From assembly GCF_002355415.1 (NCBI RefSeq), contig NZ_AP014936.1, forward strand, positions 3,695,501 through 3,759,500: a stretch of DNA of 64,000 nucleotides. The letters run 5' to 3'. Below are positions 3,079 to 39,802 of this stretch, piece by piece. Position numbers and translations under genes: made by a program. Numbering within the stretch: position 1 is the first letter of the stretch; every line of letters begins with the position of its first letter. Source of the stretch: Sulfurifustis variabilis. GTDB lineage: Bacteria; Pseudomonadota; Gammaproteobacteria; Acidiferrobacterales; Sulfurifustaceae. The notes under the pieces were generated by a model that saw only the letters and a list, made by a program, of their open reading frames with translations, was not told where the DNA came from and ran no database searches.

Positions 3079-3765
3079 TCAGAAGAACACGTCTTCCCGC
3101 ATGCGGGTCTGCAGCGTCTTGGGCGTCGCGAAGAAATAGCGGAAGGCCGCGGAAACCGTCCCGTCGGTTTCATCGCCGTCCGTGTAGTCGAAGCGCAGGC
3201 TGGCACGCTGGTCGAAGACGTCGGGCTGGACCTCGAGGCCGACGGTGTAGGTGTCGTTGGCGTCGTCGAACCCGAGGGCGCCGAACAGGCGGACGTCGGG
3301 CTGAACGTACCAAGCCGCTCCCGCGCTCCCGATGCTGTCCTCGCGGAGCCGGCCGGGATCGACGTCAAGGTGCGCCCAAGAGGCGAACACGTCGGCGTTG
3401 CCCAGGTAGACCGCGCCGCGCACTTCCCAGGTGGTCAGCTCGACATCCCGGTCGTCCACGTCGAGCTCCTCGAAGGAGCCGACGACGCCGACGTGGCCGA
3501 TCTGGAAGTCCCGGGCGAAAAGGCCGGCAAAGTAGCCGTAGCCGTCGGTGTCGTCGTCCTCGACGAGGGAGACACCGAGGACGGCTCCCAACAGGTCGCC
3601 GATGGGCAGGTTGATGTTCGCGGCCGCATCGATCGTGCCGCCCTCGGTGTAGCGGAACGCGCCTTCGCCGTTCGTCTCGGAGACGGCGCGGTTGCCCTGC
3701 GCGAGAGCGGTGGAAACGGCTGGGAGCAGGCAGAGAGCGAATAGAGAAGCGACGGCTCGTTTCAT
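3079..3765 (-). CDS. Secreted beta-rich protein, probable outer-membrane barrel of unknown function
   Basis: The 228-residue product has a clear signal peptide (MKRAVASLFALCLLPAVSTALA) behind a GGAGGTGTA ribosome site. The remainder alternates short amphipathic strands with Asp/Gly turns (VGVVGSFEELDVDDRDVEL, WYVQPDVRLFGALGFDD, ASLRFDYTDGDETDGTVSAAFRYFF), as in small outer-membrane barrels, but it does not end in a typical C-terminal Phe strand signal because a polar tail follows. Very acidic. No specific family recognised. Confidence 0.65.
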   Translation of the reverse strand: MKRAVASLFALCLLPAVSTALAQGNRAVSETNGEGAFRYTEGGTIDAAANINLPIGDLLGAVLGVSLVEDDDTDGYGYFAGLFARDFQIGHVGVVGSFEELDVDDRDVELTTWEVRGAVYLGNADVFASWAHLDVDPGRLREDSIGSAGAAWYVQPDVRLFGALGFDDANDTYTVGLEVQPDVFDQRASLRFDYTDGDETDGTVSAAFRYFFATPKTLQTRMREDVFF

Positions 3766-3870
3766 TACACCTCCGTTATTGTTGTGCCACGTGGTCGCAG
3801 CCCGGACGGGGTTGCGGTCACCCGAAGCCCTTGCTGTCCTTTCCGAGAAATGCGGCGGCAGTCTGACGAA

Positions 3871-5382
3871 TCAGCTCAGGAACAGCTTGTACGCCTGGTT
3901 TCGGGTCTCGTCGGCGTACTCGTAGCCGAGGCTGTCGAGGAACGCCTGGAACTTGCGCTTGTCCGCGGGCGGCACCTGCATCCCGACGAGCACGCGGCCG
4001 AAATCGGCGCCGTGCGAACGGTAGTGGAAGAGCGAGATGTTCCAGCGCCCGCCCATCTTGTCGAGGAAGTTCATCAGCGCGCCGGGGCGCTCGGGGAACT
4101 CGAAGCGGTAGATGATCTCGTCCACCGCGTTCGGCGCGCGGCCGCCGACGAGGTGGCGAATGTGCAGCTTCGCCATCTCGTTGTCGGTCATGTCGAGCAC
4201 GGGGTAGCCCTGTGTCTTGAGGGCCTTCATCAGGCGCTTTCCCTCCGCGGGGGTGCCCGTCTGCACGCCGACGAAGATGTGCGCGGCCTTGGGGTCGTCG
4301 TATCGGTAGTTGAACTCGGTGATCGAGTGGTCGCCCACGATGGTGCAGAACCGCTTGAGCGCGCCCGGCCGTTCGGGGATCGTCACGGCGAAGATCGACT
4401 CGCGCCGCTCGCCGATGTCGGCGCGCTCGGAGACGTAGCGCAGCCGGTCGAAGTTGATGTTGGCGCCGGAAGCGATGGTCACGAGATGCCTGCCCTTCAG
4501 CCTGTTGGTCTCGACGTAGCGCTTGAGGCCGGCGTAGCCCAGCGCCCCGGCGGGCTCCAGGATGGAGCGGCGGTCCTCGAAGATCTCCTTGATGGCGCCG
4601 CAGATCTCGTCGTTCGATACGATCACCATCTCGTCCACGAACTTGCGACAGATCCTCAGGGTCTCCCGGCCGACCTGGCGCACGGCGACGCCGTCCGCGA
4701 AGAGGTTCACGTGATCGAGCGTGACGCGCTTGCCGGTCTTGAGGGAGCGCTCCATCGCGTCCGCGCCCTCGGGCTCGACGCCGATGATTTTCACCTCCGG
4801 ACGGAGCTGCTTGATGTAGAGCGCGATCCCGGCGATCAGGCCGCCGCCGCCGACCGGCACGAACACCGCGTCGAGGGCGCCCTGGTGCTGGGTCAGGATC
4901 TCGAAACCGATGGTGCCCTGCCCGGCGATCACGTCCGGATCGTCGTACGGGTGCACGAACGTGAGGCCGCGCTCGCGCGCGAGGCCCGTCGCGTGGGCGT
5001 ACGCGGCGTCGTAGTTGTCGCCGTGCAGCACCACCTGGCCGCCGAGGTTCGCCACCGCGTTCACTTTGATCTCGGGGGTCGTGCGCGGCATGACGATCAC
5101 GGCCTTGGCGCCGAGCTTCTTGCCCGCGAGCGCCACGCCCTGCGCATGGTTGCCGGCGGAGGCCGTGACCACGCCCTTCCGGAGCTCGGCGCGCGAGAGC
5201 CGGGCCATCCGGTTGTAGGCCCCGCGGCACTTGAAGGAGAACACCGGCTGCTCGTCCTCGCGCTTCAGCCAGACGTGGTTGTGCAACCGCTTCGAAAGGA
5301 TCGGCGCGTGCTCGAGCGGAGTTTCCCTTGCGACGTCGTAGACCCGCGCGTTGAGAATTCGCTTCAGATACTGTTGCGGCAA
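3871..5382 (-). CDS. ilvA: Threonine ammonia-lyase (threonine deaminase), biosynthetic
   Basis: IlvA converts L-threonine to 2-oxobutanoate in isoleucine synthesis. The start is set at TTG 5382 because an AAAGG site lies 7 bases upstream and the residues LPQQYLKRILNARVYDVA match the usual IlvA start. ATGs further upstream would overlap rpiA. The product has 503 residues, close to the 514 of E. coli. PLP-binding Lys is in SFKCRGAYN (about residue 51), the phosphate loop is GGGGLIAG, and SGANINF follows. Two C-terminal ACT-like regulatory repeats (about 325-500: AVTIPERPGALKRF and YRFEFPERPGALMNF) point to feedback control by isoleucine/valine. It is divergent from rpiA. Confidence 0.95.
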   Translation of the reverse strand: MPQQYLKRILNARVYDVARETPLEHAPILSKRLHNHVWLKREDEQPVFSFKCRGAYNRMARLSRAELRKGVVTASAGNHAQGVALAGKKLGAKAVIVMPRTTPEIKVNAVANLGGQVVLHGDNYDAAYAHATGLARERGLTFVHPYDDPDVIAGQGTIGFEILTQHQGALDAVFVPVGGGGLIAGIALYIKQLRPEVKIIGVEPEGADAMERSLKTGKRVTLDHVNLFADGVAVRQVGRETLRICRKFVDEMVIVSNDEICGAIKEIFEDRRSILEPAGALGYAGLKRYVETNRLKGRHLVTIASGANINFDRLRYVSERADIGERRESIFAVTIPERPGALKRFCTIVGDHSITEFNYRYDDPKAAHIFVGVQTGTPAEGKRLMKALKTQGYPVLDMTDNEMAKLHIRHLVGGRAPNAVDEIIYRFEFPERPGALMNFLDKMGGRWNISLFHYRSHGADFGRVLVGMQVPPADKRKFQAFLDSLGYEYADETRNQAYKLFLS

Positions 5383-36844: not shown

Positions 36845-37044
36845 CAGCCCCCTCCTATCGCGAACACGACCTCGACCCGGTCGGATTGCTTCAACGGATG
36901 GCGGCCGTGCTGGCTGCGCGGGACGATCTCCCGGTTCACCTCCACCGCGACCCGGCGCTGCGCGAGGCCCATGCTCTCGAGCAGGTCGGCGACGGTGAGC
37001 GAACCTTCGAAGCGGCGTGGTTCGCCGTTGACCAGGATTTCCAT
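36844..37044 (-). CDS. thiS: ThiS sulfur carrier protein
   Basis: A 66-residue ubiquitin-like protein from ATG 37044, where the family-type start [15 protein letters not shown] lies. [23 protein letters not shown] follows and it ends in Gly-Gly-Gly, which supplies the C-terminal Gly-Gly needed to accept sulfur. In contrast to the MoaD-like protein at 32895 it is complete. Confidence 0.93.
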
Positions 37045-37138
37045 CGGGAAGAGCGGGTGCAACTCGGAAGCGAAACTGGCTACACTATATGACATCGTGC
37101 TTTCGGGGCCAAGGCGGCCCCGGCGCGAAAGCGACGGC

Positions 37139-37177
37139 GCGGGTGTAGTTCAATGGTAGAACGAAAGCTTCCCAAGC
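37139..37177 (+). tRNA. tRNA-Gly(CCC) 5' exon (acceptor, D arm, anticodon)
   Basis: 39 bases: acceptor GCGGGTG, D arm GTTC...GAAC, anticodon stem AAAGC, loop TTCCCAA with anticodon CCC, then the first two bases (GC) of the 3' stem strand. A group II intron begins at 37178. Joined to 39768-39802 it gives a 74-base tRNA with all four stems paired. Confidence 0.88.
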
Positions 37178-37938
37178 GTGCGACACGAGTCGCGAAGGTA
37201 GCTGGCCTTTCTGCCACCTAGTTCTAAGAGCAGATAAGACAGCGCTGAAAAGCCCCGGTACATTACGTTGGGGCGCTGTGCGGCGAAGGCCGTACAAGTA
37301 ATTGTCGGATGGTGGCATCAACCACCTGCCCGACCCGGTGTTCAGCCACCGGTAGCCTAGGAGCAGTGTAGGACGGGCAACCGACTGTACTAAGCGCTCT
37401 GACAATGTAGCCACCCCATGGGGTACGCTGGACCCCGTGAGGGGCCTGGCGTGAACTCGGAAACGCGTCCGAGGAAGGCGCTAGGCTGAGTTGATGGATC
37501 AGCGTAAGCAAACCGCTAATAAACGTCGTTAAGCTTAATGGGCCATCGCGTTTGGTTTTAGGCCCTACCCAAAAGGGACGTGGTTGGATGTGCTGCTGCT
37601 TGGTCGGTACACGCTGACACCGAACCACCGGCGGAAAGGCGGGATCCACCCAATTCTGTTACTTGTGCGGAACGTGGTAAACCCGATGCGATGTCCAGCG
37701 ACATCGGACAAGGTTGCCCGCAAGGGTGACTGATGTCGCAGCGGGTAGAGGATCGCGGAAAAAGCGAAAGCTCTCCTGTAACGGGAGGGATAGAGGATGA
37801 AACGATCGCCTCGACCCGAAAGGGTGCTGACTTCCGCGTGGTGGCCTATCGCTTGATAGGTCTGCAACAACCTGCCCCTGAGGGACGGACTTCCACTCCC
37901 TCAGGGGAGAGGTGCGTCCATTCCCGATGGGAACCTGG

Positions 37939-38012
37939 GCGGGTGTAGTTCAATGGTAGAACCTCAGCTTCCCAAGCTGATGACGTGGGTTCGATTCCCA
38001 TCACCCGCTCCA
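37939..38012 (+). tRNA. Intact tRNA-Gly(CCC) inside the intron
   Basis: A complete 74-base tRNA with encoded CCA. Acceptor GCGGGTG/CACCCGC, D arm GTTC/GAAC, anticodon stem TCAGC/GCTGA, loop TTCCCAA (anticodon CCC), T arm GTGGG/CCCAT. It differs from the interrupted copy only around the anticodon stem, position 26 and the variable loop. It lies in domain IV of the intron, 14 bases before the maturase start. No intrinsic promoter is obvious, so it may rely on read-through. Confidence 0.93.
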
Positions 38013-38026
38013 TATCGGAGGTTGAT

Positions 38027-39670
38027 ATGGACGCATGCAATCACGGCGATGTCGCCTCCGCTACTTGGCATAGTTGGCATTCCATACAGTGGCCGGCTGG
38101 GCACGGAGTAGTCAGGAGGTTACAGACTCGTATAGCGAAGGCGGCTCGGGAATGCGACTGGCGCAAGGTCAAACGCCTGCAAAAGTTGCTGACCCGCTCG
38201 ACGAGCAGCAAAGCAGTCGCTGTTCGTCGGGTTACCGAGAACCAGGGCCGTAAGACGCCCGGCGTAGATGGAGCAACTTGGTCTACGCCCGACGCCAAAT
38301 GGAGGGCGGTGTGCTCGCTGCATGCAAGGCACTACCGTCCACAACCTTTACGGCGTGTTCACATCCCGAAAGCCAACGGGGGCAAGAGGCCGCTGGGCAT
38401 CCCGACGATGCGCGACAGGGCCATGCAGGCGCTTTACCTGCTGGCGCTGGAGCCGGTCGCGGAGACCACGGCGGACTCCAACTCCTACGGCTTTCGCCCC
38501 GAGCGGTCCACGGTGGATGCCATCGAGCAGTGCTTCAATGCGCTGCGTCGAAAGGACTCCGCCCAATGGATACTTGAAGGCGATATCAAGGGGTGTTTTG
38601 ACAATATTGCCCACGACTGGATGCTCCGACGCATCCCGATCGACCGGGCCGTGTTGCGCAAATGGCTGAAAGCCGGATACGTTGAAAAAGGTCGTTTGTT
38701 TCCTACGGAAGCCGGAACGCCACAGGGCGGGATCATTTCGCCCACGCTGGCAAACATGGTCCTTGATGGTCTTGAGCCCGTCCTTGCGACACGTTTCAAG
38801 CGCCAGCACAAGGTTCATTTTGTCCGTTATGCGGATGATTTCGTGGTCACCGGGCGCTCGCAAGAGCTCTTGGAGCGCGAAGTCATACCCGTGATCGAAA
38901 ACTTTCTGGCAGAACGCGGTTTGCGTCTCTCGCCCAGCAAGACCAAGATCACGCACATTGCGGACGGCTTCGACTTTCTTGGTTGGAATGTCCGGAAGTA
39001 CGGCAACAAGCTTCTGATCAAACCAGCCAAAGGAAACGAAAAGCAGCTCTACCGAAAGGTGCGCGACATCCTGCGGAAGCTGCGCATGGCGAAACAGGAA
39101 GACGTGATTCGGTTGCTCAATCCGCTCCTCAGGGGGTGGGGCAACTACCACTCTTCCCAAACGTCATCGCGCGCGTTCGCTAAGATGGATCACCGTATCT
39201 TCGGCGGGCTGCAGCGTTGGGTCAAACGGCGGCACCCCACCAAGAACAAGCGCTGGTTGAAAAGGCGGTACTATTCCTCAGCGCCGAACCGAGATTGGGT
39301 GTTCGCCTCTGGCATGGAAGCTCTCGTGCGTCTGTCGGACTTTAAAATCCGGCGGCACGTGAAGATCAAGGCCGAGGCCAATCCGTTCGATCCGACATGG
39401 GACGAGTATTTCGAAATCCGACTCGGATGGAAGATGAGGCGTACCCTGGCGGGCAGGCGAAAGTTGTCTTGGCTCTGGACCAAACAGGATGGTCGGTGTC
39501 CGCAGTGTCGCCAACCGATCACCAACAAATCTGGGTGGCATCTCCACCACAAGGTTTGGCGGTGCCACGGGGGCTCGGATAAACTGTCCAACTTGGAACT
39601 CGTTCATGAGAACTGCCATAGGCAGAAACATAGCCTTGGAAGGAAACATGCGAGGCCGCCGGTCTCCTGA
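38027..39670 (+). CDS. ltrA: Group II intron reverse transcriptase/maturase with HNH endonuclease
   Basis: A 547-residue intron-encoded protein from ATG 38027 (CGGAGG site directly after the tRNA). The reverse transcriptase domain has HIPKANGGKRPLGIPTMRDR, SYGFRPERS, GDIKGCFDNIAH, TPQGGIISPTLANMVLDGLE and the catalytic FVRYADDFVV. The maturase X domain follows (LLRGWGNYHSS). The C-terminal HNH nuclease has CPQC...LHHKVWRCHGGSD...LVHENCHRQKH. It is complete with no frameshift. It would promote intron splicing and retrohoming. Confidence 0.96.
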   Translation: MDACNHGDVASATWHSWHSIQWPAGHGVVRRLQTRIAKAARECDWRKVKRLQKLLTRSTSSKAVAVRRVTENQGRKTPGVDGATWSTPDAKWRAVCSLHARHYRPQPLRRVHIPKANGGKRPLGIPTMRDRAMQALYLLALEPVAETTADSNSYGFRPERSTVDAIEQCFNALRRKDSAQWILEGDIKGCFDNIAHDWMLRRIPIDRAVLRKWLKAGYVEKGRLFPTEAGTPQGGIISPTLANMVLDGLEPVLATRFKRQHKVHFVRYADDFVVTGRSQELLEREVIPVIENFLAERGLRLSPSKTKITHIADGFDFLGWNVRKYGNKLLIKPAKGNEKQLYRKVRDILRKLRMAKQEDVIRLLNPLLRGWGNYHSSQTSSRAFAKMDHRIFGGLQRWVKRRHPTKNKRWLKRRYYSSAPNRDWVFASGMEALVRLSDFKIRRHVKIKAEANPFDPTWDEYFEIRLGWKMRRTLAGRRKLSWLWTKQDGRCPQCRQPITNKSGWHLHHKVWRCHGGSDKLSNLELVHENCHRQKHSLGRKHARPPVS

Positions 39671-39692
39671 TCGGAGACTTTACAGGCTGCTT

Positions 39693-39726
39693 GAGCCGTA
39701 TGAGGGGTAACTCTCACGTACGGTTC
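39693..39726 (+). ncRNA. Group II intron domain V
   Basis: A 34-base hairpin starting GAGCCGTATGAGG and ending CTCACGTACGGTTC, the highly conserved catalytic domain V, with the AGC-type catalytic triad near its base in the usual bacterial form. Confidence 0.92.
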
Positions 39727-39767
39727 TTAGGGGAGGGGGCGGCGGCAACGCCGCCTCCTTACCCGAC
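39727..39767 (+). ncRNA. Group II intron domain VI with branch-point adenosine
   Basis: A hairpin with GGGGGCGGCG/CGCCGCCTCC arms and a GCAA loop, then TTACCCGAC to the intron end. An A 7 bases from the 3' end (39761) sits at the usual bulged branch-point position. Confidence 0.75.
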
Positions 39768-39802
39768 TTTAGACGTGGGTTCGATTCCCATCACCCGCTC
39801 CA
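39768..39802 (+). tRNA. tRNA-Gly(CCC) 3' exon
   Basis: 35 bases: TTT finishing the anticodon stem, variable loop AGAC, T arm GTGGG...CCCAT, acceptor CACCCGC, discriminator T and encoded CCA. It pairs correctly with the 5' exon at 37139-37177 after removal of the intron. Confidence 0.88.

Follow-up and report, generated by a model that had tools for sequence, protein, structure and literature searches.

Bacterial mobile group II introns that encode a protein with reverse transcriptase (RT), maturase and HNH endonuclease domains begin with GTGCG and end with AY, match the Rfam models for domains D1–D4 and for domain V, bind their targets by pairing of exon-binding sites (EBS) with intron-binding sites (IBS), and carry the maturase gene in domain IV. 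An intron with all of these features lies in the stretch analyzed here, 64,000 nt of the genome of the gammaproteobacterium Sulfurifustis variabilis (contig NZ_AP014936.1, positions 3,695,501 to 3,759,500 of the forward strand; hereafter the window). In contrast to the described introns, a tRNA gene precedes its domain-IV maturase, and its target is the anticodon arm of a tRNA-Gly gene. It probably represents a group II lineage specialized on this arm that brings along, in its domain IV, a replacement tRNA with the anticodon of its target.

Other known systems share parts of this arrangement. Integrative elements that target tRNA genes insert into them with tRNA function preserved, the gene being restored at the junction by site-specific recombination, whereas here a whole second tRNA rides inside the intron. 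To our knowledge, there is no tRNA in domain IV of the chloroplast trnK intron, and group I introns of tRNA genes bring no replacement tRNA; in engineered home-and-rescue drives, the rescue copy is recoded. The trnK intron likewise belongs to group II, encodes a maturase (MatK) and interrupts an essential tRNA gene, but in the accessible part of a review MatK is described as lacking RT motifs, with mobility presumed lost (PMC4424553). Self-splicing introns of bacterial tRNAs, mainly of group I, are also catalytic introns of the anticodon region, yet they sit in the anticodon loop according to the available excerpt (PMC4390854), and group I introns are a different ribozyme. Engineered drives insert into a needed gene and bring a copy along, as outlined in the retrieved part of one study (PMC7968924), but those are CRISPR/Cas9 constructs in Drosophila, whereas the present element is natural and bacterial and finds its target by EBS/IBS pairing. 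Our literature search, covering retrieved portions of open-licence papers, returned no precedent for a bacterial group II intron that carries a tRNA or lies inside a tRNA-Gly gene. An apparent precedent, an ‘intronic tRNA’ in the retrieved text of a mitogenome paper, was discarded, as the term there denotes a tRNA gene with an intron.

The interrupted gene in the window encodes a tRNA-Gly(CCC) on the forward strand, like all features described below. Its 5′ exon, read from the sequence, comprises 39 nt (37139..37177) and its 3′ exon, which includes the CCA, 35 nt (39768..39802). Joined, they form a 74-nt tRNA-Gly(CCC) that by eye is identical at 74/74 positions to its uninterrupted counterpart in a genome from the same family (G008, locus L125), a gene that lies upstream of an asmA-like gene as in the window. 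Since the order thiG, thiS, tRNA-Gly(CCC), asmA-like gene recurs in relatives (the gene names are our own labels, given without a family search), the interrupted tRNA can be regarded as the native gene. In standard tRNA numbering, the intron is inserted after G39-C40, on the 3′ side of the anticodon stem.

The intron itself spans 2,590 nt (37178..39767), with directly readable ends, 5′ GTGCGAC and 3′ CCGAC, which agree with the group II boundaries GUGYG (GTGCG at 37178) and AY (AC at 39767). Rfam models group-II-D1D4-7 (RF02012; 37334..37480, 93.2 bits) and Intron_gpII (RF00029; 39691..39767, 62.3 bits, from domain V to the 3′ end) both match above their gathering scores. Based on sequence reading, EBS2 (AAGCTT, 37531..37536) pairs with IBS2 (AAGCTT, 37165-37170) and EBS1 (GCTTGG, 37598..37603) with IBS1 (CCAAGC, 37172-37177), the last bases of the 5′ exon, with 6/6 pairs in each case. 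The 547-aa intron-encoded protein (38027..39670) comprises RT, maturase and HNH endonuclease domains; it scores 380 bits against TIGR04416 (cut-off 300), also matches RVT_1, GIIM and HNH, and has YADD at residues 268-271. By its ends, the D1–D4 and domain V matches, the EBS/IBS pairing and the RT-maturase protein, the element is a group II intron.

Within this intron lies a second, intact 74-nt tRNA-Gly(CCC) with encoded CCA (37939..38012; hereafter the cargo), for which ARAGORN gives an exact call and the Rfam tRNA model 72.9 bits (E 4.9e-14); a chance tRNA call was rejected because both programs identify it. Its CCA is separated from the maturase ATG by 14 nt, with a Shine-Dalgarno-like GGAGG (38017..38021) directly after the tRNA. 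The cargo is enclosed by a predicted stem, taken as domain IVa, of GTGCGTCCAT (37912..37921) and ATGGACGCAT (38027..38036), the latter strand taking in the maturase start codon. The first-pass annotation of this DNA had thus rightly placed an intact tRNA of the interrupted species in domain IV, 14 bases before the maturase start, although cargo and joined exons, while of the same isoacceptor, are identical at only 68/74 positions. The differences lie in and beside the anticodon stem, as paired changes. At the same time, the cargo matches exactly an ordinary tRNA-Gly(CCC) present in two other genomes (G012 and G023), suggesting that cargo tRNAs originate from ordinary tRNA genes. A scan of the forward strand from 36950 to 38100 predicted no sigma-70 promoter for the cargo alone, but also none for the native tRNA, so that it says little about expression of the cargo. 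Exon halves and cargo form direct repeats of 24 nt (37139-37162 and 37939-37962) and 31 nt (37982-38012 and 39772-39802), and recombination across these would delete part of the intron.

Maturase searches revealed three further introns of this design in two distantly related genomes from the class, two in the draft assembly G291 (about 60 contigs) and one in the single-contig genome G714. The first of the G291 introns (G291a, contig 21) interrupts and carries a tRNA-Gly(CCC), as does the intron of G714, whereas the second (G291b, contig 49) interrupts and carries a tRNA-Gly(TCC); its target lies between tRNA-Tyr and tRNA-Thr, before a gene that by eye resembles tuf. All four introns break tRNA-Gly at the same position, and the cargo lies 753-761 nt into the intron, with 14-24 nt between its CCA and the ATG of the maturase. 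In the window, G291a and G291b, joining the exons gives a sequence that by eye does not differ from an uninterrupted tRNA of a relative; the spliced tRNA of G714 has a G-A mismatch at the top of its anticodon stem, possibly reflecting decay of the interrupted copy. An intact cargo with the anticodon of the target is present in all four introns as far as sequence can tell, and at this level it is confirmed that group II introns specific to tRNA-Gly and carrying a matching tRNA form a recurrent lineage. The earlier suggestion that the element brings a spare of the disrupted tRNA thereby gains strong support: homologous introns with a tRNA in domain IV exist, and their cargo anticodon, CCC or TCC, follows that of the interrupted tRNA.

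Phylogenetic analysis of 73 maturase proteins placed the four cargo-intron proteins in one clade (support 100/99), which was present in 200/200 bootstrap trees examined; 16 copies or close relatives had been dropped from the tree, and matches shorter than 420 residues as well as some repeats left out. The four proteins share 57-77% pairwise identity. According to our own Nei-Gojobori script, synonymous divergence (dS) is 2.3 between G291a and G291b and 3.6 and 5.2 between the window and these two, and G714 is past saturation, while nonsynonymous divergence (dN) across the four is 0.18-0.39. All 21 cargo stem pairs are intact in each of the four introns, with changes on both sides at seven pairs, and minimum-energy folding of these cargo regions places 64 to 71 of the 74 tRNA positions in the cloverleaf state. 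That the stems remain intact although synonymous sites are near or past saturation is the pattern expected of purifying selection on the tRNA.

At E 1e-120, the maturase search recovered 12 of 369 genomes of the class, the window's included, and at E 1e-150 it recovered 10 of 398 genomes of the phylum, which added G714. In the order of G714, 15 of 361 genomes matched at E 1e-180, G714 among them, and none brought a new cargo; in the window's order the search matched 3/57 genomes, the window's and two without a tRNA (G004 and G050). A sequence pattern describing a tRNA-Gly(CCC) broken at this site by the beginning of an intron matched 2/369 genomes, those of the window and of G291; both carry the cargo, and no cargo-less intron was found at the site by this pattern. 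The same kind of pattern matched 1/11 genomes of the order of G291, namely G291 itself, and a search of viral contigs with an exact pattern of the intron start gave 0 matches. Among 20 genomes of the window's family, pattern TTCCCAAGCGTGYGA matched two, of which the second, G016, has no called tRNA-Gly and by eye no intron. In 122 ARAGORN locus scans (58 + 15 + 34 + 15, among which are the four cargo introns themselves and L179, a repeat of L166), no other intron of the protein family showed a tRNA in domain IV; one locus (L085) is too short before the maturase to tell, and the scans covered 23 of 80 viral loci. A tblastn search of plasmids returned 1,512 records, of which 22 show 60-80% identity over the match; these records lie outside the tRNA scans. 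By eye, none of the non-cargo relatives at 23 loci, several without a found intron end, interrupts a tRNA anticodon arm.

The window genome, a single contig of 3,958,814 bases, gave 43 tRNA matches, of which 42 could be typed; three of these are glycine genes, a TCC, a GCC and the CCC copy inside the intron. The question raised in the first-pass annotation, whether the genome holds other tRNA-Gly(CCC) genes, can thus be answered for these 42 of 43 matches: there is no second intact one. In line with this, a DNA search of the genome with the intron start and the cargo, in which 8 of 19 first-look candidates were scored, recovered, besides the queried stretch, only the TCC gene and both exon halves. 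Typing of all 42 Rfam tRNA matches of G291 showed that its sole intact tRNA-Gly(CCC) and tRNA-Gly(TCC) are the cargo copies. Based on such sequence typing, the target tRNAs in both genomes are the only ones of their anticodon found besides the cargo. GGA codons need a UCC anticodon, and with no other intact tRNA-Gly(TCC) found, G291 would depend on the cargo or on the spliced tRNA.

The published genome of S. variabilis skN76T is reported, in the available part of its description, to have 46 tRNA genes, compared to the 43 matches found here (PMC5024460). One tRNA-like match in the window genome (G000:C1:439597-439699, locus L158; 103 nt, 49.9 bits) has no ARAGORN call and by eye resembles tRNAs of the long-variable-arm type, its anticodon loop being CTTGGGA.

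From these data, a rescue role of the cargo appears to be the best-supported reading. The element probably is, or was, mobile. Host RNase P at the 5′ end and 3′ processing to the CCA would free the cargo from the primary transcript, the excised intron or both, and the freed tRNA would spare the cell the loss of an isoacceptor upon insertion, even if splicing were slow; splicing would restore the split tRNA as a second source. Changes in the anticodon stem of the cargo would keep the element from recognizing and invading its own replacement tRNA.

Target recognition can be followed across the four introns. All four exons end with CCAAGC and all four introns have the EBS1 GCTTGG, while EBS2 tracks the exon: EBS2 and IBS2 read AAGCTT/AAGCTT in the window, AAGCTG/CAGCTT in G291a and AGGCTG/CAGCCT in G291b, where the target is the TCC tRNA. 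In three of the four cargo tRNAs, G31-C39 stands in place of the pair C31-G39, a flip that turns IBS1 into CCAACC, and predicted EBS1 pairing drops from −7.7 kcal/mol with the CCAAGC exon to −2.4 kcal/mol with the CCAACC cargo. Protection of the cargo is therefore plausible for these three introns, going by the modeled pairing energies. Ordinary tRNA-Gly(CCC/TCC) genes in the fetched loci of relatives, which were picked by likeness to the window's tRNA, have CCAAGC in 32/32 distinct sequences and the flip in 0/32.

Several observations weigh against parts of this picture. The EBS2 of G714, AAGCTG, forms only 5/6 pairs with its own exon. The window cargo keeps the full IBS1 CCAAGC and has a single IBS2 mismatch (predicted EBS2 pairing −4.5 versus −5.5 kcal/mol), so that it is at best weakly protected. 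Ordinary genes with CCAACC, although rare, exist as well: a pattern that covers only part of tRNA-Gly diversity found them in 5/340 genomes, all CCC and at loci that gave no maturase match. By eye, 73/74 positions of the G291a cargo are identical to an ordinary tRNA of another genome (G384). The flip may thus stem from a borrowed tRNA rather than from selection. Nor are the three flips independent events, since the two G291 cargo tRNAs are related. With regard to host dependence, a tRNA-Gly(TCC) could read GGG codons by wobble, in which case the tRNA-Gly(CCC) of the window's host may be dispensable, and a second tRNA-Gly(TCC) gene of G291 could be absent from the assembly because this is a draft.

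Maturation of the cargo by RNase P and 3′ enzymes would also cut the intron in domain IV, and the tRNA might serve this cut rather than the host. t-elements of plant mitochondria are tRNA-like processing signals, and if the cargo were a comparable processing or folding signal, its removal would make the maturase mRNA or set the split of the intron, and glycine charging would be irrelevant. In all four introns the tRNA indeed lies right before the maturase Shine-Dalgarno sequence and within a predicted stem, and the predicted exposure of the window's start codon rises from 0.03 to 0.34 in the post-cut fragment; for G714 it changes from 0.34 to 0.36, and in G291a and G291b it falls. However, any tRNA would do as a signal, yet the cargo anticodon tracks the target even through the change from CCC to TCC, and both anticodon and CCA are intact. 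Release of the Shine-Dalgarno sequence by tRNA excision was not supported, as its predicted exposure rose in 0/4 post-cut fragments, and we regard a pure signal function as unlikely. Comparably improbable is a bipartite intron in which tRNA maturation cuts domain IV and the halves, held together by the domain-IVa helix and tertiary contacts, splice in trans. Since the strands flanking the tRNA can pair, a nicked intron could stay together as trans-splicing introns do, and these strands beat most dinucleotide shuffles: 3/200 shuffles bound as well in G291a, 5/200 in G291b, 5/200 in G714 and 24/200 in the window. This geometry would permit the trade-off between tRNA maturation and splicing, or the trans-splicing mode, that the first-pass annotation had proposed. 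On the other hand, splicing in cis ahead of tRNA processing is equally possible, and the constrained maturases and retuned EBS2 argue for continued mobility, where retrohoming uses the excised lariat. A 2018 paper reportedly deals, by its title, with trans-splicing by bacterial group II introns from intron-invaded mRNAs, apparently a different situation (PMC6248898). The accessible part of a 2015 review states that natural trans-splicing introns are mostly broken in domain IV, which would suit a split intron, but also that such introns were unreported in bacteria (PMC4424553).

The cargo might instead be a neutral hitch-hiker, a tRNA copy that entered domain IV by recombination or template switching, was tolerated, and kept its likeness to the exons by gene conversion. 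Conversion appears possible, as the window's cargo and exons share near-identical 5′ parts and the identical 31-nt 3′ part, and in both G291 introns cargo and exon are identical over the 3′ part. Conversion would, however, erase the paired changes by which the anticodon stems differ from the exons, and an intact cargo in all four elements over such large synonymous divergence is not what a tolerated passenger predicts, which makes this explanation very unlikely. That only one assembly of the window's species is at hand could raise the suspicion of an assembly artefact or chimera; this was rejected and has a negligible probability, because the window genome is a single contig and the same architecture recurs in the assemblies of G291 and G714, the latter again a single contig.

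If the rescue role holds, a selfish intron pays for its insertion with a matched tRNA and so gains a way into highly conserved and possibly essential RNA genes, which mobile elements otherwise damage. Such introns would parallel engineered home-and-rescue drives in nature, and in them the choice of target (EBS2) could change only in step with the cargo (anticodon). In addition, a tRNA processing site would lie at a point where group II introns can be divided, which opens both bacterial trans-splicing and reliance on an RNA element to experiment. For a more far-reaching version, we consider the balance to be even: these introns would be natural home-and-rescue retroelements that break a host tRNA-Gly, supply a matched tRNA whose anticodon stem is changed to fit their own EBS1 and EBS2 poorly, and make the host dependent on the element. 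EBS2 and cargo anticodon would change together upon an isoacceptor switch, the anticodon stems of host tRNA-Gly(CCC) genes might come under counter-selection that lets them escape the introns, and recombination between cargo and exons could put the cargo in the place of the native tRNA.

Several minor observations concern the introns and their surroundings. The window genome encodes two more maturase-like genes (G000:C1:386129-387766, locus L162, and 3285271-3286287, locus L163; 44% and 33% identity to the maturase of the cargo intron), with no tRNAs in the fetched stretches. In genome G636 (locus L307), a related cargo-less intron ends a few bases before a tRNA-Leu(CAG), outside the intron, and this gene (~3690-3773) is followed by a second, near-identical tRNA-Leu(CAG) (~3987-4071). 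On contig 49 of G291 (locus L181), a repeated block with an N gap lies at ~840-1300, after the tRNA-Tyr and upstream of the split tRNA-Gly(TCC), and would represent an assembly gap or a tandem duplication.

The native tRNA-Gly(CCC) gene shows variation of its own. Its anticodon stem varies unusually within one family, with GAAAGC, GAGAGC, TGCAGC, TGTAGC and CTCAGC types seen in G001, G003, G005-G009, G011, G012 and G018 (loci L104, L113, L115, L122, L123, L125-L128 and L134), and differs even between G008 and G012 of one genus; this could reflect escape from elements that target the anticodon arm, or replacement by recombination. In two genomes (L110 in G038 and L111 in G025), a 44-nt 3′ piece of tRNA-Gly(CCC) stands directly before the asmA-like gene, with the intact tRNA-Gly(CCC) ~3.2 kb upstream in G038 and on another contig in G025, which looks like site-specific integration by other elements into the same tRNA gene. 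At locus L115 (G007), an intact tRNA-Gly(CCC) (1072-1145) is accompanied by a partial second copy of 56 nt (~1263-1318).
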